60,000 nucleotides of DNA from Bolinopsis microptera (Eukaryota; Ctenophora; Tentaculata; Lobata; Bolinopsidae): NCBI RefSeq assembly GCF_026151205.1, contig NC_087083.1:12896944-12956943 (forward strand), written 5' to 3'. The notes under the pieces are model-generated. The model worked only from the letters and a program-made list of their open reading frames with translations. It searched no databases and was not told the DNA's origin. Positions 6,572 through 58,907 of this stretch are shown piece by piece; within the stretch, counting starts at the first letter, position 1, and every line of letters starts with the position of its first letter. The position numbers and the translations under genes are program-made.

Positions 6572-24587
<18,016 letters not shown>

Positions 24588-26860: not shown

Positions 26861-27748
26861 CTATTTCAATGATAATTCATTTGCATCAAAGTTGTAACTG
26901 CACCATAGTTGTCTGTCATATTTAGATTGTAGTTCTAACAAAGCTTTCTTAACATTATTCTTGAATATACTGATAGGAGTGGAGAAGTCTATTTCACTCG
27001 TTGACTTACGGCAGTGATTCCAAATACTGGTTGATTGGTAGATGAATAGTGAGGATGGAGTGGGTGGGATGAAGTAGTTGTCTCGTCTTGGTGACCTGTT
27101 GAATAAAGAGAACATTGAGACTGGTGATTGGAACTTATTAATTTTAAACATTTCCAGTAAACAGTGCAACTTATGAAGATTGTGGACAGTCAGGAAGTTA
27201 TACTCGTTACAGATTGGTTTACTGTGTTCTAGTTCAAAGAAATCTTTGCCTAACATCTGCTTGATAACTTTACCGGTCTTATCCCTAGTGATAGGCCTTA
27301 CTCTGGCACATGTTTTGAACTTATTGAAGTACGCATCATTATCACCAAAGAGAATTCTTATGCATTTCTTTTGTGTTTTAAATATGGCTTCTAGTTTATT
27401 ATTTGATACACCTCCCCAAACAGATATTCCATAACATAGGTGTGATTCAAAAAGGGTGTGGTACAGGTCCTTATATAGTTTTTTAGGTACACAGCGTCTA
27501 ATTCCACATAGTCTACCAATCTCACATTTCAATTTACGATTTAACGCTCTTAAGTGAGCATCCCAGTTCAGTTTTTGGTCAATAATGACTCCAAGAAACT
27601 TAGTTTCCTCTACCTTTTTAATTATTATATTATTCAGTGTCAGTTCTAATTCATTGGTGTTTGAATCTGGTTCATTTCTACAGTTCGGTTTAAAGTGGAT
27701 ATAACAACATTTCTTTGTGTTGATATGCAGCAAGTTACTCTTCATATA
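26861..27748 (-). pseudogene. LINE element B, C-terminal end of ORF2
   Basis: This is the C-terminal part of a CR1-type ORF2, about 295 residues. It begins in the reverse transcriptase thumb region (YMKSNLLHINTKK) and includes KFLGVIIDQKLNW and HTLFESHLCYGISVWGG. It continues exactly where the fragment ending near 35229 stops (Val-His-Gln-Tyr). The two parts of B were separated by insertion of element A. The frame is open to its natural stop. No promoter or start of its own is expected. Confidence 0.85.
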
Positions 27749-28684
27749 GTAAAACAAATTTTTTTTAGTAAAACAAATTTTATTTTATACCCACAATCAA
27801 TTCATATTTAGTTCAAATATTTAAAGTCAAAATAACCATTTCACATAAGTGGTTATATTATAATAAAATAATTTGTGATAAATTAATAAATTAATTTACA
27901 CTCAAAAATGAACAAAATATACACAATTTTTACCTAGTGCAACACTGGTTCACCGCGCGGCTGATCGAAAAAGTTTGATTTGATTTACTAACTACAGTGT
28001 ACAGCGTACATGAAAAAATTACTTACTGAATCTTTTAATATTAGACACATTTTAATTCAGATGTTGTTCAATTAGTTAGCCACAAAAATGTTCAAATTAT
28101 GTAGGAGGGTAAAGGACACAATTGCTAGTAGTGCTTCTTTGTGCCCGTTGACTACAATGAACATTTTGCGGAGTTTCTCCAGACGGCTTTTATCGGAGTG
28201 CGTGTTATTTACTTGGTTATGCACAAGCCAGGCCAACATTTTGTTTTTGTGTCAGCCGTGCTACCAGGTTGCAGTGTATCATAAACACTAAACAATTATA
28301 CACTATACAAATTTGCTAATACAATATCATGCAGAGTCCGATCTAGCTGCAAACGTCAGACACCACAGTTCAGCCGCCAAGTACCGTTTGAGTGAACACC
28401 GAAACACGAGGTTTAGGTGTCATTTTGTAAATCACTTTATGGATGGATAATTCAGTAATTGTTGAAGAAAATTACAGTCACTGCCACCTATAGCGTTATG
28501 TCATGGGTCTGATTAACGGCCAAGAATAAACGTACGTGCGCGCTTAAGAAACCCGCGCAAATGTTGAGGTAGGGAGTAGCTGCGGCGCGCTTTTAACATA
28601 TATTACGTATAGCGCCGTACGGAAACGGCAATATTTAAGTAATTAAGTATTTGTTTACATAAATTCCACGTTTTTATCAATAAT

Positions 28685-31600
28685 CTAGCATGGTCCAAAA
28701 CTGTTAAAGTTGTCATTATGCCACTCATTATCGAACCTGCTTTGGGCATCTAGAAGAGATCGGTTTAGCCTTGATTTGATTGAGTTACAGGATGTGTTCA
28801 CAAAGTCAGGTTTATTCTGTGGATTGGAGTCCTTGAATTGATTCCAAAGCCAAGAAGATTTATAAATAAAGTTATGGCTTGGCTTTGGTGGTATTAGACG
28901 GTCATCCCTCAGTTCAGACATGTTAAGTAAAGAGTAGAGAGATATGGGTACCCTATATTTCACTATTTTAAAAAGTTCAGTTATAGTACGAAGTTTGTAA
29001 AGATTATGAACAGTAAGGAGTTTATGACTGTTAAATAATGGTTTGGTTGATTCCTTGGAATAGAATTCAGCTCCTAGTTTTTGACAACATAAGGGTCTAA
29101 CAAGTTTATTATGAACTACCGATTTAGAGCGGACACACTTTGCACATGGTTTAATACGTGGATTAACAGAGTTATTAACATTAGACTCATATTTACCCAG
29201 TATTTTACATTGAATAGGTCTAGAACGAGCACATGTTTTGAATTTGTTTTGGTATGAGTTTGCATCTCCAAAAATTATTCTAATACATCTCTTCTGTGTT
29301 AAGAACACAGGGTTGATAACTTGGTTAGAGACACCACCCCATACTGAGATGGCGAACGTAAGGTGTGATTCAAATAGTGTGTGGTATATCTGCTTGTGCA
29401 GTTTTATAGGTAGACAGTTTTTTATGCGGTAAATACGTCCACAAGCACTTCTTAGTTTCTTATTTAGTGATTCGATGTGAGGTTTCCAGTTCAGTTTATC
29501 ATCAATCAGCACACCTAGAAACTTAGTTGTTTTAACACGTATTATTATGGAGCCGTCTATGGAGAGATTTAAATCATCGGGTGTACTGCATGTAGACGAT
29601 TCATTTACACGTTTGTTTGGGGAGAAATACATATAACAGCTCTTCTTAGCGTTAATATGTAGTAGATTACATTTCATGTATCTAGAAATAGACGAAAGAA
29701 TATCGTTAGCTACATTATAAACGTCTTTTTTCGAGTCTGCAGAAACGAATAGGTTAGTGTCGTCAGCAAATAAGATAAACTTGCCTTTATTAGATACGTT
29801 GCATAGGTCATTTATATACAGGAGGAATAGTAAGGGACCAAGAACAGAGCCTTGGGGAACTCCCCACTCAACAGGAAGTTTATCGGAGTTTTCATTTAAG
29901 ACGTGAACATATTGGCTCCGGTTTGACAGGTAACTTTTTATCAAATTCAGTGCGTTGCCCCTAATTCCGTAATTATTTAATTTGAATAAAAGCTTCTCGT
30001 GAGATATCGTGTCGAAAGCCTTACTTAAATCAATGAAAATGCCAAGAACGTGTTTCCTGTCTTTTAAGTGTGATTCGATATGGCTAACAGATAAGTTCAG
30101 TGCGTGGCTTGTTGAGTGACCCTTTCTAAATCCAAATTGGTTCTCATAAATGATTCTTTTAGCAATTAGGAAGCTGTACATACGTTTATAAATAAGTTTC
30201 TCTAAAATTTTTCCAAATACTGGTAAGGTTGATATTGGCCTATAGTTTTCAAATAGTTCCTGATTATCTTTTTTATAGATGGGACTTATCTTTCCTAATT
30301 TAAGTTCATCTGGGAATATCCCCTGTTGCATGCAATGGTTAAAGTGCTTGGCTAAAAAGGGAGATATTATTCTAGCAGACTTTTTTATAACGTGAATTGG
30401 AATGTCACTAGATTTACCATTTGTGAACTCATTAATAATATCTATAATTTCATACTGTGTACAATCACTTAGATATATACTTGACTCACAGGTTTTAGGT
30501 AAGAAGTTTGAGAATGAGGGAATTGCATCCAGGGTTATATAATCTTCAGAATAATTTTCATTTAGTTTGGATGCAATCGACTGAAAATATTTATTGAATT
30601 CATTAGCAATCATCCTACGATTTATTATTTTTTGATCGTTAAGGATAAAACATGGCTTTATTTCACGCCTGGATTTTCCACGAATAGTGTTTATGATTTC
30701 CCACGTTTTCTTACTATCACCAGAGCAGTCAGTTAATTTACCTGCATAATGATTCTTCTTGACACGGTCAATAAGTACCTTGAGATGCTTCCTGTAATCC
30801 TTATATTCAAGGTATCTTTTTGCTATATTCATACAAGTGAGGCAATTACACTCCTCGCGTTTAATATTATTATTATTAGTTAGCAATAAACATTTTTTCT
30901 TCTGAGACTTTTTCCACAAATCATAGAGCGAGTCTTTCGTTCGAATTGAGGTAACAATACCACTAGTAATCCATGGGTTGTTCAAAGCGTTACGTTTAGA
31001 TAATTTCGGTTTGTCAAGTTTGAATGCCTCGTCTAGGTGCTTCTGAAAAGTAGTGCAGAAACTACTGAAGTTTTCAGGAGGATTGGTATGTAGTTCATTA
31101 TCAATTGATGTGAGAAAGGCGTCTACATTTGAGGTGCTATAGTCGTAATATTGTGCGTGTTTAAGTTTAGGTTCATCAGCTACAAAATTAAGACAACTAT
31201 TGATTTGAAAGATGGCATGGTGGTGAGAAACATTGAGTTGCAACGTTCCTGTAAACAACGTGCTTTCGATTTCATTAGTGAAAATATTATCAATACAGGA
31301 TGGTTTACATCCAGGCTTTTCGTGTGTTTGGATAGATATCGTTGGTGAGTACCCTAATCCGAGCATTATGTTTTCTAATTCTTGTGTGCATCTTCTATTG
31401 CCGTTATGGAGGTTAATATTAAAATCACCCATTACATGTACATTTAACTTTGGGAGTTTACCCATAATTACTTGTAGCTCAGCGAGAAACTCGTCAATGT
31501 CTCCACTAGGGGGTCTATAGATTACTCCTACGTTTATAGTTTTAGATTCTTGATGAATAGTCACAAAGAGGCTTTCTAAATTACTGGTGACGTTTGATAC

Positions 31601-32185
31601 ATCTACATTAACGACTGCATTAAAAGCATTGTGAACATAAACTGCAACGCCCGTTCCTTTCGATTTGTTATGCATTGTAGTCTGGTAGAAACTATTGAAT
31701 CCATTAATAGGGTAAACGGAACTCTCTTCTGGGCTAATATTGGTTTCGGCAAGGCCTATGATAGGGAAATTGTGTTTGAGGCACTCTAATTCAGATATGA
31801 GATGGTCGAAGTTGCTTTTATTGCCGTCGATATTCAGGAAGAAAGAGCCACCATTTTTATGAAGATCGGCACTAAGTTCGTTATTAAATTTGTTGGTGGA
31901 GTAAGGCTTACAATATTCTAGAACTTGTGACATTTTCAGAATCAAGGGGTCGTTGTTATTGTTATCCGACTTACTAATCATATCTTTAAACGGGTTGTAC
32001 TGTTTAAGGATTAGCGCTTTGCACTGACTACAAAAGTAATTTGAGTTGATCACGGTTGCTTCAGAGTTTTTGAAACATTTTTCATGTATAATGCAATTAC
32101 ATTTAAAACATTCAACAAATTTTTGACCTAAACATAAGCTCTTAAGGCAGTGACTGCATTTTTCCTTATTTGAGAAAGTTACCAT
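28685..32185 (-). CDS. LINE A ORF2: zinc finger, AP endonuclease and reverse transcriptase
   Basis: The 1166-aa replication protein of a CR1/L2-group LINE. Residues about 10-55 form a Cys/His zinc finger (CSHC...CFKC...HEKC...FCSQC). Residues about 115-328 are an APE-type endonuclease with LAETN (E147), MGDFNIN (D254) and SHHHAIF (H322). The reverse transcriptase (about 625-890) has FIDLSKAFD (D719), GVPQGSVLGP and the catalytic FADDTN (806-811). There is no RNase H domain, as is usual for this clade. The start ATG lies within the last codons of ORF1: the overlap ATGGTAA (32185-32179) holds the ORF2 start and the ORF1 stop. The frame has no defect. Confidence 0.93.
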   Translation of the reverse strand: MVTFSNKEKCSHCLKSLCLGQKFVECFKCNCIIHEKCFKNSEATVINSNYFCSQCKALILKQYNPFKDMISKSDNNNNDPLILKMSQVLEYCKPYSTNKFNNELSADLHKNGGSFFLNIDGNKSNFDHLISELECLKHNFPIIGLAETNISPEESSVYPINGFNSFYQTTMHNKSKGTGVAVYVHNAFNAVVNVDVSNVTSNLESLFVTIHQESKTINVGVIYRPPSGDIDEFLAELQVIMGKLPKLNVHVMGDFNINLHNGNRRCTQELENIMLGLGYSPTISIQTHEKPGCKPSCIDNIFTNEIESTLFTGTLQLNVSHHHAIFQINSCLNFVADEPKLKHAQYYDYSTSNVDAFLTSIDNELHTNPPENFSSFCTTFQKHLDEAFKLDKPKLSKRNALNNPWITSGIVTSIRTKDSLYDLWKKSQKKKCLLLTNNNNIKREECNCLTCMNIAKRYLEYKDYRKHLKVLIDRVKKNHYAGKLTDCSGDSKKTWEIINTIRGKSRREIKPCFILNDQKIINRRMIANEFNKYFQSIASKLNENYSEDYITLDAIPSFSNFLPKTCESSIYLSDCTQYEIIDIINEFTNGKSSDIPIHVIKKSARIISPFLAKHFNHCMQQGIFPDELKLGKISPIYKKDNQELFENYRPISTLPVFGKILEKLIYKRMYSFLIAKRIIYENQFGFRKGHSTSHALNLSVSHIESHLKDRKHVLGIFIDLSKAFDTISHEKLLFKLNNYGIRGNALNLIKSYLSNRSQYVHVLNENSDKLPVEWGVPQGSVLGPLLFLLYINDLCNVSNKGKFILFADDTNLFVSADSKKDVYNVANDILSSISRYMKCNLLHINAKKSCYMYFSPNKRVNESSTCSTPDDLNLSIDGSIIIRVKTTKFLGVLIDDKLNWKPHIESLNKKLRSACGRIYRIKNCLPIKLHKQIYHTLFESHLTFAISVWGGVSNQVINPVFLTQKRCIRIIFGDANSYQNKFKTCARSRPIQCKILGKYESNVNNSVNPRIKPCAKCVRSKSVVHNKLVRPLCCQKLGAEFYSKESTKPLFNSHKLLTVHNLYKLRTITELFKIVKYRVPISLYSLLNMSELRDDRLIPPKPSHNFIYKSSWLWNQFKDSNPQNKPDFVNTSCNSIKSRLNRSLLDAQSRFDNEWHNDNFNSFGPC

Positions 32186-34176
32186 ACCTGGTAACTGTAC
32201 CCGCCTCCTCCTCTGGCAACTGAACTGAAGGGTCTCCCGTCAACTCTGCTAGTCGGTCCTCTTCGTTTATCAACTCCTCGGTGGAGCCTGGAAAATATGG
32301 TTTGTTTAATTAGGCCAGCAAGGACCCTAGCACCTAGTTCGTTAAGGTGAAGCGTGTCAGGCCTGTTTTGTCGATCAACTGTCTTGGACAATTGATGGAC
32401 CAACATGCCATAATGATCAGCAAAGCCATTAAAACCTTGCACACTCTGAACACCAGAACTCATAGATGTAAGACCGTTCGTCAGCAGTTCATTAAACAAG
32501 TTAACTTTTCTATTCAAATCAGCAATTTTAGTAGGAAGCAGCGGGCAAACATAAACAAAACATTTAGGGTTCAGCAGCTTAATTTCTTTTATTTTTGTTA
32601 ACAGCGAACTACATACACTTCTGACGTTACTTTGAGGTTGCTTTATATCATTTATCCCGCACATGATAACAACATTGCTGTAGGATTGACAGCTGTAAGG
32701 GTCAATGTTGTTGATTATAGGCGCCCATTCTTTAAGGCCAGGCATGAGTTCACCAAATGTATTACGTTTATTAGTCCCAAACTTGAGCATTCCTGTATTT
32801 GAATCTCCTATCAAGATTGTAGAGTTTTTGTTCTTCCAGTTAACTGATCTGAACGTGAGGCTATATCTGATGTCCTGGGTGACGTTACCTTCTGGAATTG
32901 AATGAGTGAAAAAGTCTTGTGATTTTCTTGTCATATGATAGAGTGATCGGTGGGTGGATGTTAGGTCAGACTTGACACCAGACTTTTTGTCAAGGAACTG
33001 GATGGAGCATTCTTGGCCGAGGGACAGTGTGAAAATGGATGATTCGACATCTATAGTGGGCTCGTCGTCTGAGTGGCTGGGAAGTGAACTATTAGGGCCT
33101 TCGTACCTATTTATGAGACATGAATTGATGACAGGAGGTGAAGGATGCCTCTCAGGATGTGACTTGAAGGTGGGGTGCTGTTCGTAGAATAATTCCTTTT
33201 GTAGGACATTGATTTTCTCCAGTATCGGCTGAAGCACCAGGGGGATTGGGGTTGTATCGGCACCAGATTTGGAACCTGTATACGTGTAAGGAGCTCCGAA
33301 TGCAACAGTTGAGCGGCCTGATTCAGACACAAATGACAATGACTCTAGTGATGTGGTGATATTTGAGGCTGTATCTTCATTGATGAATTCTAGTTTGAGG
33401 TCGGTGAAGCTTTTCTGATTGTGCTCTATGGTAGTTGTGGGTTCAGGGACAACTGTGGGTGGGTGGGTGAGTGGGTGGGTGGGTGGTGTGACACGACTAG
33501 GATGGACCCAGGGCTGAGAGCTTGATGGTGCTTGGGTGATTTGAGGGCTGCTTGAGGAGGCAGTTGATTTCTTAAGGTCATCCATACTAGACTGAAGCTC
33601 AGTGATCTGATTTTTCATAGTTTTAAGTTTCTCATCAACCTGACCTTCTTGGAGGGTCCGATGTTGAATATGTAGCTCAATGTCTCCTAGCTTGAGTATT
33701 CTCTCAGAAATGGTCTTGGTGGTAGCTCCGAGATCGTTTGTGTTGGATATCAGCGAAGTTAGTTTCTCCTCCATTTTCATGACAGTTTCTTCAAGATCAA
33801 TGTTTTTATTCCTCAGATTAGACATATTGAGAAGTAAAGTCTCGATCTGTTGGTTGTTACGGATGGTCACGCCAGGGGCACTGAAACAAAGCGGACAGAG
33901 CCAATCCTCTATCTGTGTAACAAACTGTTCGGAAATACCTTTTAGATTACAACAATTGCTGTGCCAGGTTTGAGGGCAAGAGGTACAATCAATAATCCAT
34001 GAGGTTTTATCACTAGTTCCACAGGGACATTTATCATACCTGATGTCCGGTTTCGAGGTTTCTCCTGATTTGGTGGCTTTCTTCGGGGCCTTTTTGGCTG
34101 GGTCCTTTGCTATATCCTTTGCTGTACGGTTGGGGGTTGCTGCGGTCTTGGTGTTGGTGTCTTTCTTTAATACCAT
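32179..34176 (-). CDS. LINE A ORF1: PHD finger, AlkB-like oxygenase and SGNH esterase
   Basis: An in-frame ATG at 34197 would add seven residues; numbering here uses that longer form (672 aa). Residues 56-105 are a PHD finger with ligands C57, C59, C71, C74, H79, C82, C101 and C104. A predicted coiled coil spans about 115-210, then a Pro/Thr/Ser linker. Residues about 270-450 match the AlkB family of Fe(II)/2-oxoglutarate oxygenases: LINRYEG, LPSHSDDEP (H375, D377), H432 in FFTHSIP, and RYSLTFR (R444, R450). Residues about 460-635 are an SGNH hydrolase: GDSNT (S466), CGIND (N516), DTLH (D614, H617). PHD and esterase domains are established in CR1 ORF1 proteins; an AlkB domain between them is not something I know to be described. 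Its substrate is unknown. Confidence 0.88.
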   Translation of the reverse strand: MVLKKDTNTKTAATPNRTAKDIAKDPAKKAPKKATKSGETSKPDIRYDKCPCGTSDKTSWIIDCTSCPQTWHSNCCNLKGISEQFVTQIEDWLCPLCFSAPGVTIRNNQQIETLLLNMSNLRNKNIDLEETVMKMEEKLTSLISNTNDLGATTKTISERILKLGDIELHIQHRTLQEGQVDEKLKTMKNQITELQSSMDDLKKSTASSSSPQITQAPSSSQPWVHPSRVTPPTHPLTHPPTVVPEPTTTIEHNQKSFTDLKLEFINEDTASNITTSLESLSFVSESGRSTVAFGAPYTYTGSKSGADTTPIPLVLQPILEKINVLQKELFYEQHPTFKSHPERHPSPPVINSCLINRYEGPNSSLPSHSDDEPTIDVESSIFTLSLGQECSIQFLDKKSGVKSDLTSTHRSLYHMTRKSQDFFTHSIPEGNVTQDIRYSLTFRSVNWKNKNSTILIGDSNTGMLKFGTNKRNTFGELMPGLKEWAPIINNIDPYSCQSYSNVVIMCGINDIKQPQSNVRSVCSSLLTKIKEIKLLNPKCFVYVCPLLPTKIADLNRKVNLFNELLTNGLTSMSSGVQSVQGFNGFADHYGMLVHQLSKTVDRQNRPDTLHLNELGARVLAGLIKQTIFSRLHRGVDKRRGPTSRVDGRPFSSVARGGGGYSYQVW

Positions 34177-34404
34177 ATTCACGGAAAACAAGATCATGGG
34201 GGTGTGCCAGGTGCCTCCGAGGTGCCACTTTCATCGAGTCAGCTTCGCCTGAAATATATAGATCATGGGTGGTGGTCTGGTGGTAATGAGTTGAAGCCAG
34301 GGAATTGATGTTGAGAGACACTTGAAAATTTCATTGATTTGCATGTTGAAACTGAAAGGTAATTTAATGAAATAATTAATTAAATAATAAGACATATGGT
34401 GACA

Positions 34405-34540
34405 TGATAGGGGGGGTGGGTGGGGGTGGTAGATGGATCTATTCATGCTTTGTTTGGGGAGGGTGGGTGGGGGTGGTGGATGGATCTATTCATGTTCTGT
34501 TTTGGGAGGGTGGGTGGGGGTGGTGGAGGGTTCCTTTTGG
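34405..34540. repeat. Tandem G-rich repeat in the 5' region of LINE A
   Basis: Three copies of a unit of about 55-60 bp, each containing GGGTGGGTGGGGGTGGT and, in the first two, GATGGATCTATTCATG, lie about 230-360 bp upstream of ORF1. Together with flanking unique sequence to 35213 they make the long 5' region of element A. Tandem promoter repeats occur in some LINE 5' regions, but promoter function is not shown here. Confidence 0.75.
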
Positions 34541-35228
34541 ATTATTTATTATGTTCGGGGAGGGATGCAGATGAACTACAGGCTTCAGAGTGAAGACAGT
34601 AGAGATAAATGGGGGTTCCTTTGAACAGGAAACATTGTGGCAGGCATGTCTGTTTGACAAACCTGCCACAAAAGGCTAGGAGTCAAGGTACAATAAACTT
34701 GAATAGTTCAATAAGTAAGTCAATTTAGAGAATAATTCATATTCATACTAAATTCAAGTAAATAAATATATAAAAAATCTAATCAATCCTAAAGAATAAC
34801 TCATACTCAAATTAATCAATATCATTATCATTATCATTATATAGACACTCTCCAATATCATAACAATAGTGAAAGAACTTTCCGATAAATCAATATCAAG
34901 TAGATCATACTCTCCAAAACTACAGAATATACAAATAATTCAAGGATGTGTCCAACCAGAAGCCGGCAGTCCATGTGTTACATAGACTTTAAGGGATGGG
35001 GTAAGGGAGGGGATTTGGATGATCTGATGATTTATGAGGTTGTGTTCCATGATCTACTCATCTTCGGTTAGAGCTTCATCTCCGACAGTGGCACCTCTTC
35101 ACACACCCTGCAACACCCCCACAGATCTTTGATCTTTAGCAACACATGGACATTGGGCTCCTGGCCTCACTTGACATCCTCAAATTATTTGTTATATAGT
35201 AGTGTTGAAAGTATTAAAACTGAAGTAT

Positions 35229-36112
35229 TATACTGATGAACAAGTTTAAGAATTTTGTTAGCTTTGCAGTAAAGTGTTTTTATACATTTATCTACAACAA
35301 ATATGTTGGTGTCATCGGCAAAAAGTATAAACTTGCCTAGGTCTGATACTCTATATATTTCATTGATGTAGATAATGAAAAGCAAGGGACCTAATACTGA
35401 CCCCTGAGGCACACCAAATATAACAGACAGTTTTTCGGATTCTTCTCCAAGTACTGAAACATATTGCTGTCTATTAGAGAGATAACTGGCTATTAATTTA
35501 TTTGCAGTCCCTCGAATTCCATAATCATTCAGTTTTTTAAGCAGTTTATCATGACAGATTGTATCAAAAGCTTTACTTAAATCAATGAAGATGCCTAGTA
35601 CATGATTTTTATCTCTTAGTGATTTTTCAATGTAGTCGACAGAGAAGTTAAGTGCATGGCTTGTCGAATGATTTTTTCTGAAGCCATATTGATTTTCATA
35701 TAATAATCCTTGTGACTGAAAGAAACTGTAAAGCCTGGAGAATATGATTTTCTCAAGTATTTTACCAAATATCGCTAAGGTTGAGATAGGCCTGTAATTT
35801 TCAAGAAGCTCAGCATTTTCTTTCTTATATATTGGACTTATTTTACCTACTTTTAGGTCGTCTGGAAAAACTCCCTGTTGCATACATTCGTTATACAAAA
35901 CCGATAGTAGTGGGCTAATTATGCCTGATACTGCCTTTACTATATGTACTGGTATATCACTAGCCTTGCCATTCTGAAGTTCCGATATGATCTTAGCCAC
36001 CTCTTCAGGCGAGCAGTCATGTAGATATATATTAGCTGTATTCGATTTAGGTAAGAGGTCACAGAAACTTGGAAGCTGATTTATTTGTATCTCTCCTAGT
36101 TCTGTGTAGGCT
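35229..36112 (-). pseudogene. LINE element B, reverse transcriptase part of ORF2
   Basis: A continuation of ORF2 of element B after removal of the nested fragment at 36113-36975. It starts at AYTELGEIQINQLP and has ENYRPIST, FRKNHSTSHALN, FIDLSKAFDTICHDKLL, GVPQGSVLGPLL and the catalytic FADDTN. It ends abruptly at KLVHQY, where element A inserted; the remaining codons up to a stop at 35185 belong to element A. Its partner C-terminal piece lies at 26861-27748. Confidence 0.88.
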
Positions 36113-36975
36113 TTTTTTTTTTTTTTTTTTTTAAGAGAGGCTGGGCCTGGTTGGCCCACGAGAGGATAGCATATGAATGCTTTGCCTACCTCTGGGGTAT
36201 GGCAGTCCTGTGGGAGGATGCCAGTGGAATCAAGATGTGTAATGAAGGATGATGGTAAGTGTTGTGGGGTGTGTCATAGATAAACGCTTAAGTGGTGGTT
36301 GAGTGTGGAAGAGAGAGGCGAAATAAGACGGCGTTAAAGTAGTCGCTATGTTACACCTGTCTGGTCCAACTCCTCTGGCACCACTAAGCGTTTAGTGTGG
36401 TTTGTAAAGTTGACAATGGTGGAGATGTGTTGGTTGTCGAATATGTCATTGACAGAGAGGTAGTAGTCCCGGAAATATTGACCTCTTATTTGGGCAATAG
36501 CCGGGCACTGTCCGAGAAAGTGTGAGACAGTCTCCTCTTCGTCGCCGCATTTAGGACAAGCACTTGTGTCTGATTTGCGAATGGTGTGTAGGTGTTTGTT
36601 GAGGCCACAATGTCCCGTGATGAGGTGCACTGCAGTTCTATAATTTTGTCTGTTGTTACTGAGTGTAGTGTTGAGATTTTTGATGATGTTGATGTTTTTA
36701 TGTCCAAGTGTCAGTTTAGTGTGTCTGGGACCATCAGTAATCCATGATTCTTGATTAAGTTTTGTGACTTTGTCGTTGATCAGGCGTTTGATGTAAGATT
36801 GTGGAATTGGGCAATTCAAAGTGGATTCACTGGTTGTACCATTTTTGGCCAGCTCGTCTGCTTTTTCATTACCCCACAATCCAATGTGTGCAGCTATCCA
36901 TCTGATCTCTAAGGTGTTAGTGGATCCGAGTGTATTGAGGGTGTCGTAACAGTCTCTAGTAGTCCTACTCCTCGT
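36113..36975 (-). mobile_element. 5'-truncated RNase H-bearing LINE fragment nested in element B
   Basis: The insert has a poly-A tail (20 T on the plus strand, 36113-36132) and an exact 10-bp target duplication TGTGTAGGCT (36103-36112 and 36976-36985). Its coding part (to a stop at 36346, about 210 residues) matches the end of an I/R1-group LINE ORF2: RNase H motif WIAAHIGLWGNEKADELA followed by a zinc knuckle-like CPKCGDEEETVSHFLGQCP. The rest of the source element is absent. The host frame happens to stay open into the insert, giving a spurious fusion with the element B endonuclease. Confidence 0.9.
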
Positions 36976-36985
36976 TGTGTAGGCT

Positions 36986-38601
36986 GCATTAAGGTTAGAT
37001 GCTAGGGATACAAAATACTTATTGAATTCATTCGCTATTACTCTGCGATTAGTTATCTTTTCATTGTCTATGGTAAATATAGGTCTGATATCACGTTTCT
37101 GTTTGCCACGAATTTTATTTATAAGTTCCCAGGTTTTCTTGGAGTTTCCCTGAGTTTCAAGAAACTTGTCAGAATAATATTCAGATACAGCCTTTTTACG
37201 AACCTTTTTTAGAGCCTTTCTATATTCTTTGTAGTCATCATAACGGTTTCTTTTATTACAGCAGATAGAACACAGGCATGTGCCCCCTTTTGTGTCAGTT
37301 TCGCCTTGTTTACACTTAACTTTCCTGACTTTCGCCCAGGCATCATACAGTCCATGGCAGTGGTTTACTGAGGCTATAATCCCGCCAGTAATCCAGGGGT
37401 TGTTCTGGATAGTGCGTTTAGTGGTTTTGGGTATAGCTAGTTTGCAGGTTTCGTCAATGCTGTTTTTAAAGATATCATGAAAGTTGGTAAAATCTATAAT
37501 TGGTTCATTGTCTAGTTTATTACCCAAGACTTCAGCAAATTTATCAGTGTTTGACTTACAATAGTCATAATATTGAGTGTGCTTATGAATATTTTTGGTC
37601 TTGCTAATTTTCCAGTCAGATATATTAAATATAGGGAGGTGGTGAGATATGTGATCAGTTATGACTCCAGAGGCAGTAACAGAGTCTAGGTCATTTGTAA
37701 TAATGTTGTCGATGCACGAGGCATTACATCCAGGCTTTTCATGAGTTGCTAATGATATCAATGGGAAGAAGCCTCTACTGAATAGGACGTCTTCATACTG
37801 TGCAATAATGTTACTGTGTTTACCATGGAGATTAATGTTAAAATCACCTGCAATGTGTGTATGTTTTGGTGCTTTATCAAGGATTGACGACAATTCTCGG
37901 AGAGCTTGCTCAGCATTGCCACTTGGAGGGCGGTATATTACTCCTATAGAAGTAGAATTTCCTATACTTCCTATGGTTACAAAGAGGGTTTCTAGATTTT
38001 CTGTTACTTGTGACAGGTTGTTATTTTTAACAGCATTAAAGGAGTTAAGGACATATAGAGCTACTCCTGAGCCTTTTACTTTCGAGTCAAAGGTATCTTG
38101 ATAAAAGCTCTCATAGCCTGTGAGTTCGTACAAGTTTTTCAATTCAGGGCCTACATTTGTTTCAGCAAGACCAATTACAGAGAATTTGTTAGTAAATCTA
38201 GCTATTTCAATTGCCAGCGAGTCAAAGTTTGATTTGTTGCCATCAAGATTTTGAAATATTAGTGAGTTTTGCACTTGTAATTCGTGAGCAAAGGTGTGGT
38301 TTATGCCTTTTACAGAATATGAATCACAGCTTTCAAGTACCTCAGAGATTTTACGTGTAACATCATCTGCATCAGTGTTATCATCATTGTCATCATTCAG
38401 AAGCTTGAATGGGTTATAACGGATTACTGCTAGGTGGAGACAATTATTGCAGTACAAGTCAACTTTTTGATTTTGTTTGTCACTGGTGTTATAGCATCTA
38501 GAGTGAATGGGACAGTTACAGTTGTAGCATTCAAATATAGATTGACCTAAGTAGATACTTTTTAAACAGTGGGCACAGACCTCTTTTTTAAGAACATTCA
38601 T
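36986..38601 (-). pseudogene. LINE element B, zinc finger and endonuclease part of ORF2
   Basis: The N-terminal part of ORF2. It has a zinc finger (CAHC...CYNC...HSRC...YCNNC), an APE endonuclease with LAETN, AGDFNIN, GVIYRPPSG and ISHHLPIF, and the linker up to ANEFNKYF. The start overlaps the ORF1 stop in ATGA (38601-38598). The frame is broken only by the nested RNase H fragment and by element A; otherwise I see no stop in any of its pieces, so B was probably intact before those insertions. Confidence 0.88.
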
Positions 38602-40727
38602 GATGGAGGCTGATAGCCTTCAACATGAGGCTGTCCTCCGGCGGCATGAGAATAAAGTGTTGAACCAACCTTACCGTCCCTCCTCCCCCTCTTCCTCCTA
38701 TCAGTCCCTCCATGCATCCTAACAAGGACAGTATTACGGATTAAAGTAGCAAGTTTGGCCACTCCCTTCCAATTAAGGTGCAGGTAATCCGTCCGGCCAT
38801 ATTTGTCAAACTCCCTGGACAAGGTTAGGCTAAGTAAGCCAGTGTTGTTATCCAGAAAGTCGTCAAAGCCATCAACGAACTGGACACCAAAGTTTTTGGG
38901 AAGTAGCTCACGACGAATAAGCTCTATAAAGTATAGAACTTTCCTATTTAAGTCAGTATTTCGAGTTGGTAAAAGTGGACAAAGAAATACTTGAGCAGTT
39001 GGATTGGCCTCTTGGATTTGCTCAATCTTGAATTCTAGAAGACTAAATATAGCAAAAATTTCACGTTGAGATTTAACAGATGGTCTTCTAACATCATTAA
39101 TACCACACATAATAACAACGTTCTTGTATCCACATGCAAGATATGGATTAATGTCATCTATTGTCGGAGTCCAAACATTCCGACCAGGCAGCCATTTACC
39201 AAAGCTCCTCTTGTGATCGTCTCCAAATTTCATACCTGATCCGTTTGAATCAGAGAAGATACAAGTACTAGCACGATTCTTTCCGTCTATTGATCTGAAA
39301 GTAAAACTATATCGTACTGCACCAGTGACTGACCCCTTCTGGATAGAGTGCTTGTAGTGAGCCTGACTCCTTCTGGTCATCCTGTAAACTGACCTGGGGG
39401 TACACTTGTGTGTGTGAACTGATTTGTTCATTTCAGTGAAGAGGACTTCGCATTCACCTCCAATGGAAAGAGTCAATATGCTAGATTCTGGATGTATCAC
39501 TGGTTCGTTGTCAGAATGTTCTGGCAGGTAACCCTCGCCTTCTTCGTAGCGGTTGATCAACACGCTATTCATCACAGGATTTTCTTCTGTACAGAACTTC
39601 TCATTAATTTTCAGGACGAGCGCAGCCAGTTTCTCCGGTATTTCTGCATTTTTCTTGTTCTCATCCCTGGATCCACTGTATTTGTATTTCTCTCCAAAAG
39701 AACACACTGAGTGCCCATTCTCCTGGCTGAAATGAAGAGATTCGCAGTACTGGAGAAGATCTGATTCAGCATCAGTGTCTATGAATTCTTCCACTGTGTC
39801 TGCCACAGGTTTTTCTTCATTTTTAAAGATGGTCTTTGATAGGAGGTGCTTATCATTTAATGCAGAGCCAGATGATGGCTTTTCGTGAGGAATTGTAGTC
39901 TGTTGGGTAGACAGTTGGTCAAGAGACTGCTTGATTTCCTTCAGTTCATGAGAAATGTGCGGTTCCTTCCTATGTTCATCAAGCTGGTCAATGATATCAT
40001 GTATCAGTTTCTCAGTGTCAAGCTTGGGAGCAGTAGATTAGACAAGACCTTTGGTGGAAAGATCTGTGATTTGTTTCTGAAGGTCCTTAATAGCCGTTTT
40101 GACACCATTCACATCTTCACTTAGTTCTCCTTTACAGTGGTCTTCTATGCTTTTGACCCGGTTTTGATGGTCTTTTAAACCATGTTCATTGGTTAGCAGG
40201 TGTTGCAAGTGAAGGTCGAGGTTTTGGATCACCTGGATTGATTCTTTCATTTTATCAACATCAATTGTTGATAGTGATTTTGTCAAGGTTTCTATGTCTT
40301 TGAGGTTCTGACAGGCAGAGTGTACCTCATAATCACTATTGGACTGTTGTAAACTCAGGGTGTTCCGACATTTGTAGCAGAAGTTGTCGTGTGAGTTGGT
40401 TGGTACGGGTGCTACGTAGCAAAATGGACATAACCACTGTTCCAGCTTCAATATTGACGGCTTCGTGATACCCTTTAGTCCCAGACAATCTGCATGCCAG
40501 TTCTGTTTGCATCCTGTGCATACTAGCTTGAAGCTTCCAGTATTCGACTGGCTACATGGGCATCTATCAACATTATGATGCTCTTTTTTAGTGTTTTGCC
40601 CTGTTCCTGTCACAGAGCCACGTCTATTTCCGGTAGATGGTGTTTTTATACCTGTACCTGACATCGCACAGCCAAGCAACAAACAGCTAATAAAGACAGC
40701 ACAGCAAACAAACAACGAATTACTCAC
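38598..40727 (-). pseudogene. LINE element B ORF1 with one premature stop
   Basis: The same architecture as element A ORF1 in one continuous frame with a single in-frame TAA (40040-40038) about 230 codons from the start. Before it lies a PHD finger (CPCSQ...CTGC...HADC...CPFC) and a predicted coiled coil. After it lies an AlkB-like domain with LINRYEEGEGYLPEHSDNEP, HKHSIQ-like histidine context and RYSFTFR, then an SGNH domain (FSDSNG in place of GDSNT, CGIND, DYLHLN). The changed nucleophile block (Phe-Ser-Asp-Ser) may affect esterase activity. Segment 39806-38598 forms its own open frame after the stop. The 5' start of the element is near 40803. Confidence 0.85.
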
Positions 40728-40768
40728 GGCTCCCCTTTGGGGGTACTAGTACATGCTATTCCTGAACT

Positions 40769-53379: not shown

Positions 53380-56300
53380 TTACTGCAATTTGAAATTGTT
53401 TGGAGTCCAAGTATCTTTTAAGTCAGCTGCCTGTGCTTGTATTAATAGTGCTTTGGTTCTCAGTTTTATCAAGCTAATGGACGTTTCTAAGCAATTGCTT
53501 GAAGTTAAAATTTTTCTATGAACAGCGTTCCAAAGCTTGGCTGCATTAAACAAAAAAGTGTTTGATTTATTTAGGAGAATAACCATTAGACTCGTTGCAC
53601 GGTTTGAAATGTTGATAGCCTCATAAAGGGAGTATGGGCAGTGGTACTTGATAATCTTAGAGAATTCTAAAATACAGTGATATTTGTACAAGTTTTGAGC
53701 CGTAAGAATTTTTAATCTATTAAAAATGGGTTTTGTATGCTCCTTTTCAAAGTGTTTATGGTCTAGTTTTTGCATACCGTATGGTCTAGTACGTGCACAT
53801 GTTGATTGTTTATCTAAATATGAGTCAAGGTCGCCAAAAAGGATCCTTATACAGTGCTTCTGTGTGATGAAAAGACTATCATTGGACCGTTCTTTGAGGA
53901 CAACACCCCAAACACTTATACCATAACTGAGATGTGATTCAAAAAGAGCATTATATATTTTCAAATATAGTTCAGAAGGTATCGAGTGCCGAATTCTGCA
54001 GATTGCACCAGTCATAGATCTCAGTTTTTTACGGATGTAGTGCATGTGGGCAATCCAGTTTAGCTTTCTATCTATAACAACACCTAAGAATTTGGTATCC
54101 TTGACTTTAGTAATAACCTTACCATTGATGAATATTGATCTAGATTCATCTAGCAGGATAGCAAATGGTCTGGTCCGTGCACAGGTGTCATCATATTCAG
54201 AGGCAGGTTTAAAATGTATGTAGCAGCATTTGGACATGTTGATATGAAGTAGATTACATTTCATGTAAATCGAGACATGTTTAAGTACTAAGTTGGCTTT
54301 TTTGTATGTTGCTTCTCTAGATGGTCCTGATATGAAGATATTAGTGTCATCAGCATAAAGTACAAATTTCACCTCACTGTCTGAAAAGCAGTTTACTATA
54401 TCGTTCATATACAATAGGAAGAGTAACGGCCCTAGAATTGACCCTTGCGGTACTCCAAATTTCACGTCCATTGTTTCTGATGGTACATCGTTATACATAA
54501 CATACTGCTTTCTGTTAGTCAAATAGCTTTTTAGTAAGGTAAGTGCTGTGCCCCTAATACCGTAGGAATTTAATTTGCATAAAAGAATATCGTGATCAAG
54601 GGTGTCGAAGGCTTTGCTCAAGTCAATGAATATCCCTAGGACATGTTTATTGCTTGCCAGAGACTTAGTAACGGAGTCTATAGATTTGTGTAGAGCATGG
54701 GTGGTAGAATGGCCTTTTCTAAATCCAAACTGTGAGTCTGTTAGTACACCTTTAGATGTGAAGAAATTATAGAGGCGTTTATAAATGACCTTCTCGAAGA
54801 TCTTTCCAAATAAAGGTAATATTGATACAGGCCGATAATTTTCAATGCATTCTTTATTGTCTTTCTTGTAAATAGGAATAACTTTACCAGTTTTAAAAAT
54901 ACTTGGGAATGTACCACTTTGTATACATGTGTTGTAAAGCCTAGCCAAGGTACCAGCAATGAGCTTGGCCGGTTTTTTTACAACAACTATAGGTATGTCA
55001 CTCGCCTTACCATTTTGAAAGTCTCGGATCACCTCTATAATTTCTTCTTCATTAGTTTCTTCCAGGTATATGGAGTCAGATACCGAATTAGACATAAACT
55101 GAGCAAATGATTCTACTGGTTCCAGAGAAATACTATTGTTTGACAGTACATTTTTATTGAGATTACTTGCAAGAGATGTAAAATATTCACAGAATTTGTT
55201 AGCAATTATTCGTCTGCAAGTAACACTCTGGCCATCTATGACAAAATCGTCCTTACATCTAGACAAATTTTTGCCACGGAGTTCATTTATAATTTCCCAA
55301 GTCTTTTTTGAGTTCATGCTGTACTTCTCGAATTTTTGAGTATAGCACATGGCCTTTGCCATCTTTATTGAGCTCTTGAGAAACTTGTCGAATTCCTTGT
55401 AGTAGATGTGCTTGTTTGGATCCCCATCAGGTAGTTTTAATGTACAAGTCTTCTTCCATTCGAAATACAACCTAGCTTTCTTGTCGATGGAGTTAATGAG
55501 GCCCTGGGTGATCCAAGGGTTGGTTATGCTGTTACGTTTAGTGGTTCTAGGAGTTAGAAGTTTGCAAGACAAATCTATCTTTTCTTGAAATAACTGCACG
55601 AAAGAGTCAAATGTGTTACAGCTGTGGTGGAACCTATCTATATCGTTTTCTATTTCAAGACAGAGCTTCTCTAAGTTAGCATTACTATAGTCGTAGTGTA
55701 TAGTAATTTTGTCTGATGAATCAGGTGTTGGCACAGAGTCAGGGGAAAGTTCAATAAGAGTGAATATAGGGTGATGGTGGGAGATCTTGTCAGATATCAC
55801 ACCAGAAATAAGGGATTGATCTACGACATTGGTATGGATATTGTCAATACAGGTCCTGGAACAGCCAGGCATTTGGTGAGTTGGTACTGATATGGTTGGT
55901 ATGAAGCCGTTGTTGAATATTATTTCTTGGAATTTGTCCTCTGATGGAGATGGGTCGTTCAAAATGTTAACATTGAAATCACCAAGAATATATACTTTTT
56001 TGCCATTCAGTTTTGAGAGAATACATTCATACGCTTTGTTGAACATCTCAAGTGATGCGTTTGGGGGACGGTATATAACCCCTACGACAGTTGGATCTTG
56101 CAAGCTAGTGATAGATACAAACAGTGATTCTATGTGTTCATTACAGAGAGATAAGTCAGTGATTTTGTTAAAGTTAAGGGAATCGTGTAGGTAAAGACAC
56201 ACTCCTGACCCTTTACCCTTGAACTGGTTTTTCTCTTGGCAAAAGTAGCGTGATTGGTAACAGGAGGAGTATCCGTTAAGCTGATACAGAGTTCCATTTT

Positions 56301-56784
56301 CGGGATTAGTGTTTGTTTCTGCAAGGCCGATAACAGAGAATTTGTGGTCGATACAAGACAATTCAACTGCAAAGTTGTCGAAGTTTGATGCATTTCCATC
56401 AATATTTAGAAATAATTTGGACAAATATTTAGCTGAATTTTTAGGTAGGATGGTGGCATTCAACTCTGTTATTGAGAATGTTTTGCAATTTTCAAGAATC
56501 TTTGAGCTATTGTAGATAGATTCAATATAATTAACTGGCTCATCATCAATGAGGCCATTGTTTGCAAAGTGGGGAGCTTGGTAGAAAGGGTTATACCGAA
56601 CGATATCATTGGCATCAGTGCATATTTTGCAGTATGTTGCATCTCGAAATTTGACTATGTTATCATCAGTTTTGCATTTTTTGTGCATTATCTTGTCACA
56701 CATCTGACAAGTTATGAATGGATGTCCAGCACGCACAGGTCTATTGCAGCAGCAGCAAATTTCGCATATTAGTTTGGCTATCAT
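53380..56784 (-). CDS. LINE C ORF2: zinc finger, AP endonuclease and reverse transcriptase
   Basis: A 1134-aa protein, full length and open. It has an N-terminal zinc finger (CEICCCCNRP...CQMC...HKKC...YCKIC), an APE endonuclease with LAETNTNPE, LGDFNVN and ISHHHPIF, and a reverse transcriptase with ENYRPVSILP, FIDLSKAFDTLDHDILL, GVPQGSILGPLLF and the catalytic YADDTN. The C-terminus resembles those of elements A and B (KFLGVVIDRKLNW, FESHLSYGISVWG) but is clearly diverged, so C belongs to a separate subfamily. The start overlaps the ORF1 stop in ATGA (56784-56781). Confidence 0.93.
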   Translation of the reverse strand: MIAKLICEICCCCNRPVRAGHPFITCQMCDKIMHKKCKTDDNIVKFRDATYCKICTDANDIVRYNPFYQAPHFANNGLIDDEPVNYIESIYNSSKILENCKTFSITELNATILPKNSAKYLSKLFLNIDGNASNFDNFAVELSCIDHKFSVIGLAETNTNPENGTLYQLNGYSSCYQSRYFCQEKNQFKGKGSGVCLYLHDSLNFNKITDLSLCNEHIESLFVSITSLQDPTVVGVIYRPPNASLEMFNKAYECILSKLNGKKVYILGDFNVNILNDPSPSEDKFQEIIFNNGFIPTISVPTHQMPGCSRTCIDNIHTNVVDQSLISGVISDKISHHHPIFTLIELSPDSVPTPDSSDKITIHYDYSNANLEKLCLEIENDIDRFHHSCNTFDSFVQLFQEKIDLSCKLLTPRTTKRNSITNPWITQGLINSIDKKARLYFEWKKTCTLKLPDGDPNKHIYYKEFDKFLKSSIKMAKAMCYTQKFEKYSMNSKKTWEIINELRGKNLSRCKDDFVIDGQSVTCRRIIANKFCEYFTSLASNLNKNVLSNNSISLEPVESFAQFMSNSVSDSIYLEETNEEEIIEVIRDFQNGKASDIPIVVVKKPAKLIAGTLARLYNTCIQSGTFPSIFKTGKVIPIYKKDNKECIENYRPVSILPLFGKIFEKVIYKRLYNFFTSKGVLTDSQFGFRKGHSTTHALHKSIDSVTKSLASNKHVLGIFIDLSKAFDTLDHDILLCKLNSYGIRGTALTLLKSYLTNRKQYVMYNDVPSETMDVKFGVPQGSILGPLLFLLYMNDIVNCFSDSEVKFVLYADDTNIFISGPSREATYKKANLVLKHVSIYMKCNLLHINMSKCCYIHFKPASEYDDTCARTRPFAILLDESRSIFINGKVITKVKDTKFLGVVIDRKLNWIAHMHYIRKKLRSMTGAICRIRHSIPSELYLKIYNALFESHLSYGISVWGVVLKERSNDSLFITQKHCIRILFGDLDSYLDKQSTCARTRPYGMQKLDHKHFEKEHTKPIFNRLKILTAQNLYKYHCILEFSKIIKYHCPYSLYEAINISNRATSLMVILLNKSNTFLFNAAKLWNAVHRKILTSSNCLETSISLIKLRTKALLIQAQAADLKDTWTPNNFKLQ

Positions 56785-58907
56785 GACATAACTACGGATC
56801 TACGAGAACGTGGGGAAAATCTTTTTTGGGCCTTGGTAACATCACTGAACAACCTCCCATCAACGGGGCTGCCTAGGATCTTATGTGCAATTGCCCGGGA
56901 GAGTTTAAAGATACCGCTTGACCCCAGGTGGATTGGGTCATCCGGCTTCTTGTATCTACAAAACTGCTTGTCCAGTAGACCCTCCTCATCAACAAAACTA
57001 TCAAAATCTAAAGTGCCTATTCTAGTATTAGTATTACAGTACCCAAATAATAAACTATTAAACTCCATGGCTCTGTCATTCAGCCAGGAGGACCTAGTTG
57101 GAAGGATGGGTGAGACAATAACTTTAGAATATGGACACATATCACAAATATTCTTGAGCTTCTTCGTCAGCTCATTAGCCCAATGTTTAACATCACCCCC
57201 TCCCCTCTTGATATTATTTATACCACAGTGTACTACAACGTTCTTGTATCCAACACAAAGAACAGGGTCTAACTGATCTATTGTGAAACATTCGATTCTT
57301 TTCCCAGGCAGCTTGTGTCCAAATGTTCCTTTTCCAGCCCCAAATTTGAGGAACCGGGTGTTTGAATCACCGACAATCAAGGTCGCATTGATGCTCCTGC
57401 TTACGTAGCGGAAGGTAATACTGTATCTTAAGTCCCTCTTTTCTGTGCTTTTATCAATTCGGTGGTCCCAAAGAAACTGGGACTGTTTGCTCATGACATA
57501 GAGACTACGTCCCTCTATTGTCTCTACGACCTCTCCTTCAAGCTGATCCTTTTTTGTGAATTTTACAGAGCAATCACCACCTAAGGATACTGTAAATATG
57601 GAACTATCATGGACCAGTGATTGCTCGTTATCAGAGTGCTTAGGAAGAAAGCTGTTCCCATCAGTGTACCGATTTATCAAGCACTGATTGATTGTTGAAC
57701 TAGGACATTCTTCCTTTATCTTGGAGACAAGCTTATTAAGAACCTCAGGAAATTCTGTTGATGTCGGTTTTTCAGCTTTAGCCCCTGGGTACTGATAAGG
57801 TTCGCCAAAGCTCACAACCCCATGTCCATTTTCGGAGTTACTATCAAAGGCTTCCTTCTGTTGGTCTAAGAAAACTGAAAGCTCAGAGTTCAATTTTTCA
57901 TCTACAAATTCTGGGACATACAACAGAATGTGCTTGGACTTAGGGTCGTCTACACTTGCATGCTTCTGTGCATCTAGGAGAAGCTGTTCTTGGTCCATTT
58001 CACATGGTGCGGGTGACCCTATATTAAAAGGAGGCATGGGCAGATCAGGGGTGGAAACATTTGATGACCTACTGTTTTTAAAACAGTTTATGTCAAGTTT
58101 GAGCTCAGCAAGCTTGCTGTTGATGGAGTCGAGAGTTCTGAGATGGCTATCGTTGTCTTTAAGGTTCTTGATGGACTTCTGAATGGCTTCTAGAGAATCT
58201 TGTAGAGAGCTACCATCCGAGGTAGTGTGACCCATTGGCATGCTCAAGCTGCAGGGAGCTGACAAGTAGGAAGAGGACTTGACTTCGTTTTCACATCTCT
58301 GTCCACTTACTACAGCACAAACACTTTCAGCAAGACCTAGCAGGGATAGGAGACCTTCTGCTAAAGTTAGTTTGTTCAGGGATGAACAACTCTTGATCAT
58401 GGCTGGTGTAATGATCGCAAACTTGTTTACTTCAAGTTTCAGGATACTGCAAATGTTAATCTTGATTAAGTCTACCTCTGAGCGTAGGTTCTGTGCGTGG
58501 GTTAACAGATAGGTGTCGAGGGGAGCAGATCTATTTGAGAAGAAACTAAGGAGACTGCTGACATTTTTGTCTTCTTCTGAGTCCTGATTTTCTGAATGAA
58601 TTAGTTTATCGACATCTCTAAGCATTTCGTCAATATTGTCAATGACTGAAGCTGAGGAAGTGGTGGGTGTATCCTGATCGGGAACCGTAGTGGATGAAGT
58701 CTGGTCTGCAACAGGTTGAGGTTTCTCACACTTTTCTTGAGTGTCAGTGGGGGTTTCCATCATGGTGAAGAGGCAATGGGGGTACCAGGCAGACCAGGGG
58801 GCACCTTCACGTCCAACTAGCACACTCACTGAAAAGAAAGAAGAGCAGAAAGCAGTTTGAAATGTTCTGTTGTGGAAAACAATGAAAGTGTAAACTGGAT
58901 TAGTCAA
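56781..58907 (-). CDS. LINE C ORF1: AlkB-like oxygenase and SGNH esterase without PHD finger
   Basis: 708 aa from the first ATG; an internal start at 58763 (MMETPTDTQEK) is more likely. Unlike A and B there is no PHD finger: the first 300 residues are acidic and helical with no zinc ligands. Residues about 325-502 are AlkB-like: LINRYTDG, LPKHSDNE (H424, D426), WDHRID (H482), RYSITFR (R494, R500). Residues about 510-675 are SGNH-like: VGDSNT (S515), CGINN (N564), DDPIH (D657, H660). Full retention of catalytic residues in a diverged subfamily argues that both enzyme domains are under selection. Confidence 0.88.
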   Translation of the reverse strand: MTNPVYTFIVFHNRTFQTAFCSSFFSVSVLVGREGAPWSAWYPHCLFTMMETPTDTQEKCEKPQPVADQTSSTTVPDQDTPTTSSASVIDNIDEMLRDVDKLIHSENQDSEEDKNVSSLLSFFSNRSAPLDTYLLTHAQNLRSEVDLIKINICSILKLEVNKFAIITPAMIKSCSSLNKLTLAEGLLSLLGLAESVCAVVSGQRCENEVKSSSYLSAPCSLSMPMGHTTSDGSSLQDSLEAIQKSIKNLKDNDSHLRTLDSINSKLAELKLDINCFKNSRSSNVSTPDLPMPPFNIGSPAPCEMDQEQLLLDAQKHASVDDPKSKHILLYVPEFVDEKLNSELSVFLDQQKEAFDSNSENGHGVVSFGEPYQYPGAKAEKPTSTEFPEVLNKLVSKIKEECPSSTINQCLINRYTDGNSFLPKHSDNEQSLVHDSSIFTVSLGGDCSVKFTKKDQLEGEVVETIEGRSLYVMSKQSQFLWDHRIDKSTEKRDLRYSITFRYVSRSINATLIVGDSNTRFLKFGAGKGTFGHKLPGKRIECFTIDQLDPVLCVGYKNVVVHCGINNIKRGGGDVKHWANELTKKLKNICDMCPYSKVIVSPILPTRSSWLNDRAMEFNSLLFGYCNTNTRIGTLDFDSFVDEEGLLDKQFCRYKKPDDPIHLGSSGIFKLSRAIAHKILGSPVDGRLFSDVTKAQKRFSPRSRRSVVMS

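Follow-up and report, generated by a model that had tools for sequence, protein, structure and literature searches.

The ORF1 proteins (ORF, open reading frame) of CR1 and L2 long interspersed nuclear elements (LINEs) are described as carrying a PHD-like finger, a coiled coil and an SGNH esterase, with an endonuclease and a reverse transcriptase (RT) in ORF2 (PMC4120745, PMC3905857), and PMC4120745 contains neither the term "alkb" nor the term "oxygenase." A captured AlkB-family domain has been described in a different kind of retroelement, the Ty3/gypsy elements of the orchid Phalaenopsis, which are plant long terminal repeat (LTR) elements with an additional ORF encoding an ALKBH5-like, tested N6-methyladenosine (m6A) demethylase (PMC9289625, compared here by description only). 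Bdelloid rotifer retroelements provide a further parallel in that one accessory enzyme (GDSL esterase or DEDDy exonuclease) occurs across unrelated element types of one host, although the enzymes are others than AlkB and that source lacks the terms "oxygenase" and "helitron" (PMC5408684). Here, we analyzed three LINEs, designated A, B and C, in a 60,000-nucleotide stretch of the genome of the comb jelly Bolinopsis microptera (the window; NC_087083.1, C12:12896944-12956943), whose ORF1 differs from that of the described CR1/L2 elements by the addition of an AlkB-type Fe(II)/2-oxoglutarate oxygenase domain between the coiled coil and the esterase.

Scoring of ORF1 against PF13532 (gathering cut-off, 31.2 bits) gave 50.8 bits in A (3e-13), 57.2 bits in B (3.5e-15) and 65.6 bits in C (9.3e-18); as all three lie above the gathering score, this is no chance match, and membership of the domain in the AlkB family is virtually certain. 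The signature of A reads N363-R-Y365, H375-S-D377, H432, R444 and R450, and the ligand residues named for A and C in an initial annotation of this DNA proved exact, with B carrying the same set. That annotation had also claimed that the ligands persist across subfamilies, and this was borne out in a set of 123 proteins (A, B and C together with the 120 homologues listed among 226), where H375, D377, H432, N363, E379 and R450 (A numbering) are invariant, R444 is kept in 122 and position 365 is Y in 108, F in 14 and L in one, so that ligand loss in most members was not seen; the homologues were collected by similarity, which biases the set toward conserved rows, and a protein with one missing ligand would still be detectable. 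The double-stranded beta-helix fold, proposed at the outset as a check, was found, and the closest structures in a structure search are nucleic-acid repair enzymes, with ALKBH2/3 ranked over ALKBH5 and FTO both by structure and by sequence. With ALKBH3, ALKBH2 and E. coli AlkB the element domain shares this fold, the H-x-D...H ligands and R-x5-R, and an H-x-D-x-E pattern is present in all element domains aligned. When the AlkB domain of A was used as the sole query, five proteins were retrieved, all close (45-62% identity) and probably pieces of such elements, while scanning viral contigs with the AlkB alignment yielded 28 pattern matches, none of which was confirmed. Species names are attached to 12 of the 120 listed homologues (of 226), all from comb jellies (11 from Mnemiopsis leidyi and one from B. 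microptera). The public M. leidyi gene models P0053, P0059, P0107 and P0108 combine AlkB with RT or endonuclease domains, and such elements have therefore been annotated there as host genes.

In A, the AlkB domain (residues 262-456) stands directly before the SGNH esterase (residues 457-645), in the order originally described, although Pfam SGNH (cut-off, 32.9 bits) missed the esterase in all three elements (20 bits in A, 29 in B and 18.7 in C). A profile built from the family detects it in A, B and C, and its catalytic residues are kept (S466 and N516 in 123/123, H617 in 120/120 with three gaps). The PHD of A likewise scores under its Pfam cut-off (18.9 versus 24 bits), and Pfam found none in the AlkB ORF of B and none in C; the family PHD profile hits PHD fingers of known structure (E of 8e-4 at best), its Cys/His residues are almost invariant in the family, and our own profiles and conserved residues place a PHD-like finger in A and B, whereas no PHD was found in C. 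As the initial annotation stated, the PHD and esterase domains of CR1 ORF1 had already been published (PMC4120745, PMC3905857).

The domain had been attributed to the ORF1 of CR1-type LINEs; the attribution stands, but the domain is not confined to them, since other LINE types and Helitrons of the same genome also carry it. A PF13532 search of the genome (264.65 Mb, 232 contigs) returned 151 matches from a scoring of 150 among 587 candidates; every listed row exceeds the cut-off and all except the last are free of internal stops, in line with a scoring that favours intact copies. Inspection of loci L002-L032 identified the host genes ALKBH2 (L002, 3.9e-60), ALKBH3 (L003, 2.5e-39) and an ALKBH3-like gene (L004, 1.6e-27), together with four kinds of AlkB-carrying element. 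The CR1-type comprises A, B, C and L017 (RT 54-66% identical to A), with L027 and L024 placed by ORF1 alone. An L25-type LINE (L025) encodes a 646-residue protein running from AlkB to SGNH, followed by an endonuclease ORF; the RT of L031 is 36% identical to that of A, the ORF2 of this copy being interrupted, and the L25-type AlkB DNA has 37 genome matches, 13 of them at 99-100% identity, which marks a young lineage. L21-type LINEs (L019, L021) have AlkB near the N-terminus of ORF1, followed by endonuclease and RT, with an RT 28-30% identical to that of A and 22 AlkB DNA matches.

The fourth kind consists of Helitrons, assigned as such by Rep (HUH) and PIF1 in one protein, both in the L011/L030 frame and in P0127. 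L011, the first part of that frame, holds AlkB and an SGNH detected by our own profile only (13 bits, E 0.0017), and L030 continues it with DUF6570, Helitron_like_N, PIF1, the HUH motif GSPHLHM and the Walker A motif GAGGVGKS. L010 combines SGNH, AlkB, DUF6570 and Helitron_like_N in a single frame, DUF6570 also occurs in L015, and L012-L014, L016, L018, L022 and L028 were assigned to the group by their SGNH-AlkB part. Helitron AlkB DNA gave 17 matches, 12 longer than 500 bases. P0126-P0128, from other contigs, are 58-60% identical across 98, 54 and 53% of the query and are likewise listed with these five Pfam domains, all five being confirmed in one protein for P0127. Known Helitron Rep-helicase proteins also unite the HUH motif, Walker A, Helitron_like_N and PIF1 in a single frame; the difference is that SGNH and AlkB here precede Rep in the same open frame. 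SGNH occurs together with AlkB in the proteins of the CR1-type, the L25-type and the Helitrons, where it may precede or follow it; for the L21-type there is a weak lead only (9.9 bits, E 0.019, L031:845-1447), and our own SGNH profile had no match on L019, L020 or L021. In the titles and abstract starts of the papers listed by searches of open-licence PMC text, we found no description of AlkB in a LINE or Helitron. A mobile element with a captured AlkB is known, and what surprises here is the spread over LINEs and Helitrons: in contrast to the Phalaenopsis elements, those of comb jellies are non-LTR elements and Helitrons, their domain is nearest to ALKBH2/3, and it shares one protein with SGNH.

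Copy numbers and substitution rates were examined to gauge whether these proteins are maintained. The AlkB-SGNH DNA of A has 34 genome matches, 10 of which cover the whole query at 99-100% identity, and 8 of these 10 (the window copy included) retain a 683-residue stop-to-stop ORF1 with at least 99.7% identity; L041 of the A family has gaps and a single 1152-residue frame, L042 has a 636-residue frame without the HSDDE motif, and L043 and L044 (88-89% identity to A) have no long ORF. The AlkB-bearing A family probably works, or did until very recently, and has been recently mobile. The C family has 40 genome matches (40 of 49 candidates scored), and the 12 copies retrieved from it comprise 10 open ones and two that are broken (L051, L056). 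Because synonymous divergence (dS) is saturated between A, B and C, their ratio of nonsynonymous to synonymous divergence (dN/dS, omega) is unusable, and C-family, Helitron and L21-type copies were used instead. Omega of C was 0.12-0.13 against L045, L046 and L054 (dS 0.94-1.02) and 0.08-0.12 against L047-L050 (dS 1.5-2.0); close pairs gave 0.05 (L052), 0.22 (L055) and one change only (L053), and L047 versus L049 gave 0.19. In three L21-type pairs, omega was 0.044-0.055 for AlkB, 0.027-0.058 for RT and 0.19-0.21 for the remaining ORF1, so that AlkB is constrained about as tightly as RT. Ten Helitron pairs gave 0.12-0.27 for AlkB and 0.40-0.64 for the SGNH-AlkB linker stretch, with 0.17-0.36 for SGNH in seven unsaturated pairs; in a wider set, Helitron pairs ranged from 0.05 to 0.29, except L011/L012 at 0.58 (three changes). 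L25-type pairs, with 0-5 changes and omega up to 0.79, have diverged too little for a verdict. This purifying selection, with omega well below 1 in the measurable families, supports the original suggestion of a working dioxygenase, and the AlkB domain of these LINEs is very probably an active oxygenase. Between the related Helitron-like L010 and L014, dN is 0.13 for AlkB and 0.66 for SGNH (Rep was not seen in L014 itself), and the SGNH partner therefore seems to have been exchanged.

Kinship was assessed in a tree of 48 AlkB domains (44 different), whose bootstrap had not settled. Each group fell on one side of a branch: 22 CR1 (99/99), 10 Helitron (100/99), 5 L25-type (99/92) and 5 L21-type (100/99), with L017 and L024 joining the CR1 rows at 94/77 and, in a second tree without E. 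coli AlkB and near-copies, at 97/93. A branch with 98/95 support separates CR1, Helitron and L25-type domains from the L21-type, host ALKBH2/3 and E. coli AlkB; the same split reached 98/98 in the second tree, where CR1 support drops from 99/99 to 88/81 and the L21-type lies nearest ALKBH2 with weak support (88/58). Unlike ALKBH2, ALKBH3 and E. coli AlkB, the element domain is built into the ORF1 of a transposon, and in the tree the domains of CR1, Helitron and L25-type elements lie outside host ALKBH2/3; a grouping with host ALKBH3 fails across this branch, long branches being involved. The topology fits one capture common to CR1, Helitron and L25-type elements and perhaps a second by the L21-type, while a single origin of all transposon AlkB domains was not rejected, the 44 element rows lying on one side of a branch supported at 54/17. 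Long branches meet in both trees, which leaves the deeper order unsure.

All three LINEs of the window read on the minus strand, including the ORF at 32179-34197, for which the initial annotation gave no strand (Table 1). In a self-comparison of the window, the RT match of B ends at 35230 and picks up again at 27748, A is bordered by TATA on both sides, and joining the flanks with a single TATA restores an in-frame RT; A is therefore nested in B and represents a whole element of ~7.48 kb. Both A and C combine ORF1 with an ORF2 whose RT is well over the cut-off (RVT_1, 131.4 bits in A) and whose endonuclease matches stay under theirs (in A, slightly, at 24.4 and 24.2 bits against 27.4 and 24.5). 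The two ORFs share ATGGTAA at their overlap in A and ATGA in B and C. In the window copy of B, ORF1 is split over two frames, the PHD part at 40041-40745 and the AlkB part up to 40037. Assignment of A, B and C to the CR1-type was made by architecture.

Table 1. Positions of the element features in the window (all on the minus strand) and loci of the other AlkB-carrying elements.
Feature	Position or loci	Strand	Remarks
Element A, whole LINE, ~7.48 kb	27749..35228	-	inserted in ORF2 of element B; flanked by TATA target-site duplications
A ORF1, 672 aa	32179..34197	-	order: PHD-like finger, coiled coil, AlkB, SGNH
A PHD-like zinc finger, residues 56-112	33862..34032	-	Pfam PHD below cut-off; family profile; near-invariant Cys/His
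A long helices, presumed coiled coil, residues 115-211	33565..33855	-	model helices 115-166 and 171-211
A AlkB 2OG-Fe(II) oxygenase domain, residues 262-456	32830..33414	-	H375, D377, H432, R444, R450
A SGNH esterase domain, residues 457-645	32263..32829	-	S466, N516, D614, H617; Pfam below cut-off
A ORF2, 1166 aa	28685..32185	-	N-terminal Cys/His finger, endonuclease, RT
B AlkB domain in ORF1 (ORF 38598-39806)	39282..39794	-	H97, D99, H153, R165, R171
B SGNH domain	38682..39275	-	Pfam below cut-off; own SGNH profile 276.6 bits
B PHD and N-terminal part of ORF1	40041..40745	-	own PHD-region profile 88.5 bits
B ORF2 5' part (finger, endonuclease)	36346..38601	-	ORF list and Pfam
B RT part of ORF2, up to insertion of A	35185..36159	-	self-comparison match
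B remaining ORF2, past insertion of A	26861..27757	-	self-comparison match
C AlkB domain in ORF1 (ORF 56781-58907)	57399..57920	-	H424, D426, H482, R494, R500
C SGNH domain	56868..57392	-	Pfam below cut-off; own SGNH profile 168.2 bits
C ORF2 (endonuclease, RT)	53380..56784	-	RVT_1 126.7 bits; endonuclease 15.9 bits, below cut-off
L25-type loci	L005, L007, L008, L009, L025, L031		
L21-type loci	L019, L020, L021, L023, L026		
Helitron L011 + L030	G000:C10:16874382-16884548		one open frame of 3388 residues

The ORF2 frame of B runs into a stretch with RNase H-like and zf-RVT-like matches, both below cut-off, which probably comes from another LINE joined there. Elsewhere in the window, 9256-12203 and 13775-16698 are direct copies (94% identity) with ORFs of 744 and 761 aa, each encoding a nuclease-related (NERD) domain together with a weak helicase part that resembles Schlafen group 3; 20653-22361 is a tandem array with a period of ~56 bases by self-comparison; and 353-base inverted repeats (42276-42628 and 44734-45086, 97% identity) enclose an ORF at 43108-43920 with an endonuclease match below cut-off.

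The likely substrate was approached through the first lid hairpin, by counting on the alignment the residues from the strand before it to the conserved F/Y-G. The stretch measures 23 residues in host ALKBH2, 10 in A and B, 12 in C, L024, L011 and L014, and 11 in L017 and L025, and a hairpin of ALKBH2 length was absent, A, B, C, L027, L017, L024, L011, L014 and L025 being shorter by 11-13 residues. In ALKBH2, this hairpin enters duplex DNA, whereas AlkB and ALKBH3 prefer single strands and also accept RNA; 1-methyladenine (m1A) and 3-methylcytosine (m3C) prevent Watson-Crick pairing (PMC8508711). Together with the fold ranking, the lid gives a modest hint of m1A/m3C-type lesions in single-stranded substrates. 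In laboratory practice, AlkB treatment allows tRNA to be read by reverse transcriptases, and a LINE has to copy its own RNA end to end while a Helitron goes through single-stranded DNA, so that an element-borne eraser of pairing-blocking methyls is plausible. Weighing against this assignment, the lid stretch counts 20 residues in host ALKBH3, 17 in the L21-type and 11 in the ALKBH3-like L004. The H-x-D-x-E pattern is also found in host ALKBH2/3. That the main target is m1A/m3C on single strands is proposed only tentatively, the recount of the lid having lowered our confidence from evenly balanced to slightly below that.

Taken as a whole, we consider it moderately probable that an active AlkB joined to SGNH on the ORF1 protein clears methyl groups that block base pairing. 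ORF1 encodes a multidomain protein in which an Fe(II)/2-oxoglutarate AlkB-family oxygenase is fused to an SGNH esterase, and, on the model of ALKBH3 and AlkB, the oxygenase would strip N-methyl groups (m1A, m3C) from the single-stranded nucleic acid of the element. Delivered by the ORF1 protein to LINE RNA and nascent cDNA, it might keep reverse transcription from being halted; in Helitrons, its target would be the intermediate of single-stranded DNA. The main competitor is counter-defence, in which the host places m6A, N6-methyladenine (6mA) or another methyl mark on transposon RNA or DNA and the element erases the mark, escaping silencing or decay. The in vitro m6A demethylase activity of the ALKBH5-like orchid domain (PMC9289625) is a precedent, and the occurrence of AlkB in several element types that are unrelated but share one genome resembles a common response to a common pressure, yet ALKBH2/3 outrank ALKBH5 and FTO, CpG methylation is reported as low in Mnemiopsis (6.8%; PMC12221973), and nothing turned up on methylation of RNA or of adenine in comb-jelly transposons, no search having been aimed at that alone; we regard this explanation as unlikely, if the strongest of the alternatives. 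Known enzymes of the AlkB family remove methyl groups from RNA and DNA, and the observations suggest that the elements keep their copying templates clean or undo host-made marks.

It is improbable that AlkB acts on protein or lipid, or shares one substrate with SGNH such as a membrane lipid or a modified nucleoside, instead of acting on methylated bases. The pairing of the two domains in three element types and in both orders speaks for such a partnership, the zebrafish L2 esterase binds phospholipids (PMC3905857) and ALKBH enzymes are said to act also on proteins (PMC12494543), but the nearest structures are nucleic-acid repair enzymes, LINEs with an esterase ORF1 but without AlkB are known (PMC4120745), and the divergence of SGNH between L010 and L014, with AlkB kept, means that a common substrate is not required. 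A catalytically dead fold retained for binding RNA or single-stranded DNA, as ORF1 proteins often bind nucleic acid, is very improbable and was dropped, since such a domain would not need the three iron ligands and R450 that are invariant, or R444 with its single loss. The probability that the similarity is fortuitous, or that an assembly error put a host gene here, is negligible; nothing was found in favour of this reading, and it is refuted by above-cut-off matches in three elements, many copies on different chromosomes and homologues on other contigs.

These findings extend the set of enzymes known from LINE ORF1 proteins by an oxygenase and, within the reach of the literature searches, describe the first Helitrons with one. 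A further proposal, which we regard as doubtful, is that the AlkB-SGNH pair forms a transferable accessory module of comb-jelly LINE lineages and Helitrons, kept against blocking or marking methyls that the hosts, or copying itself, put on transposon single strands; with the elements bringing an eraser of their own, the comb-jelly germ line would then turn nucleic-acid methylation against the RNA or single-stranded DNA intermediates of transposons. The presence of AlkB in elements sharing little but single-stranded intermediates raises a testable question, whether base methylation limits transposition, either as RT-stopping damage or as a host mark, and the A family, young and with several intact copies, is open to direct study. 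As comb jellies branch near the base of the animals, such a defence, if true, would have implications for how old the epitranscriptomic control of transposons is.

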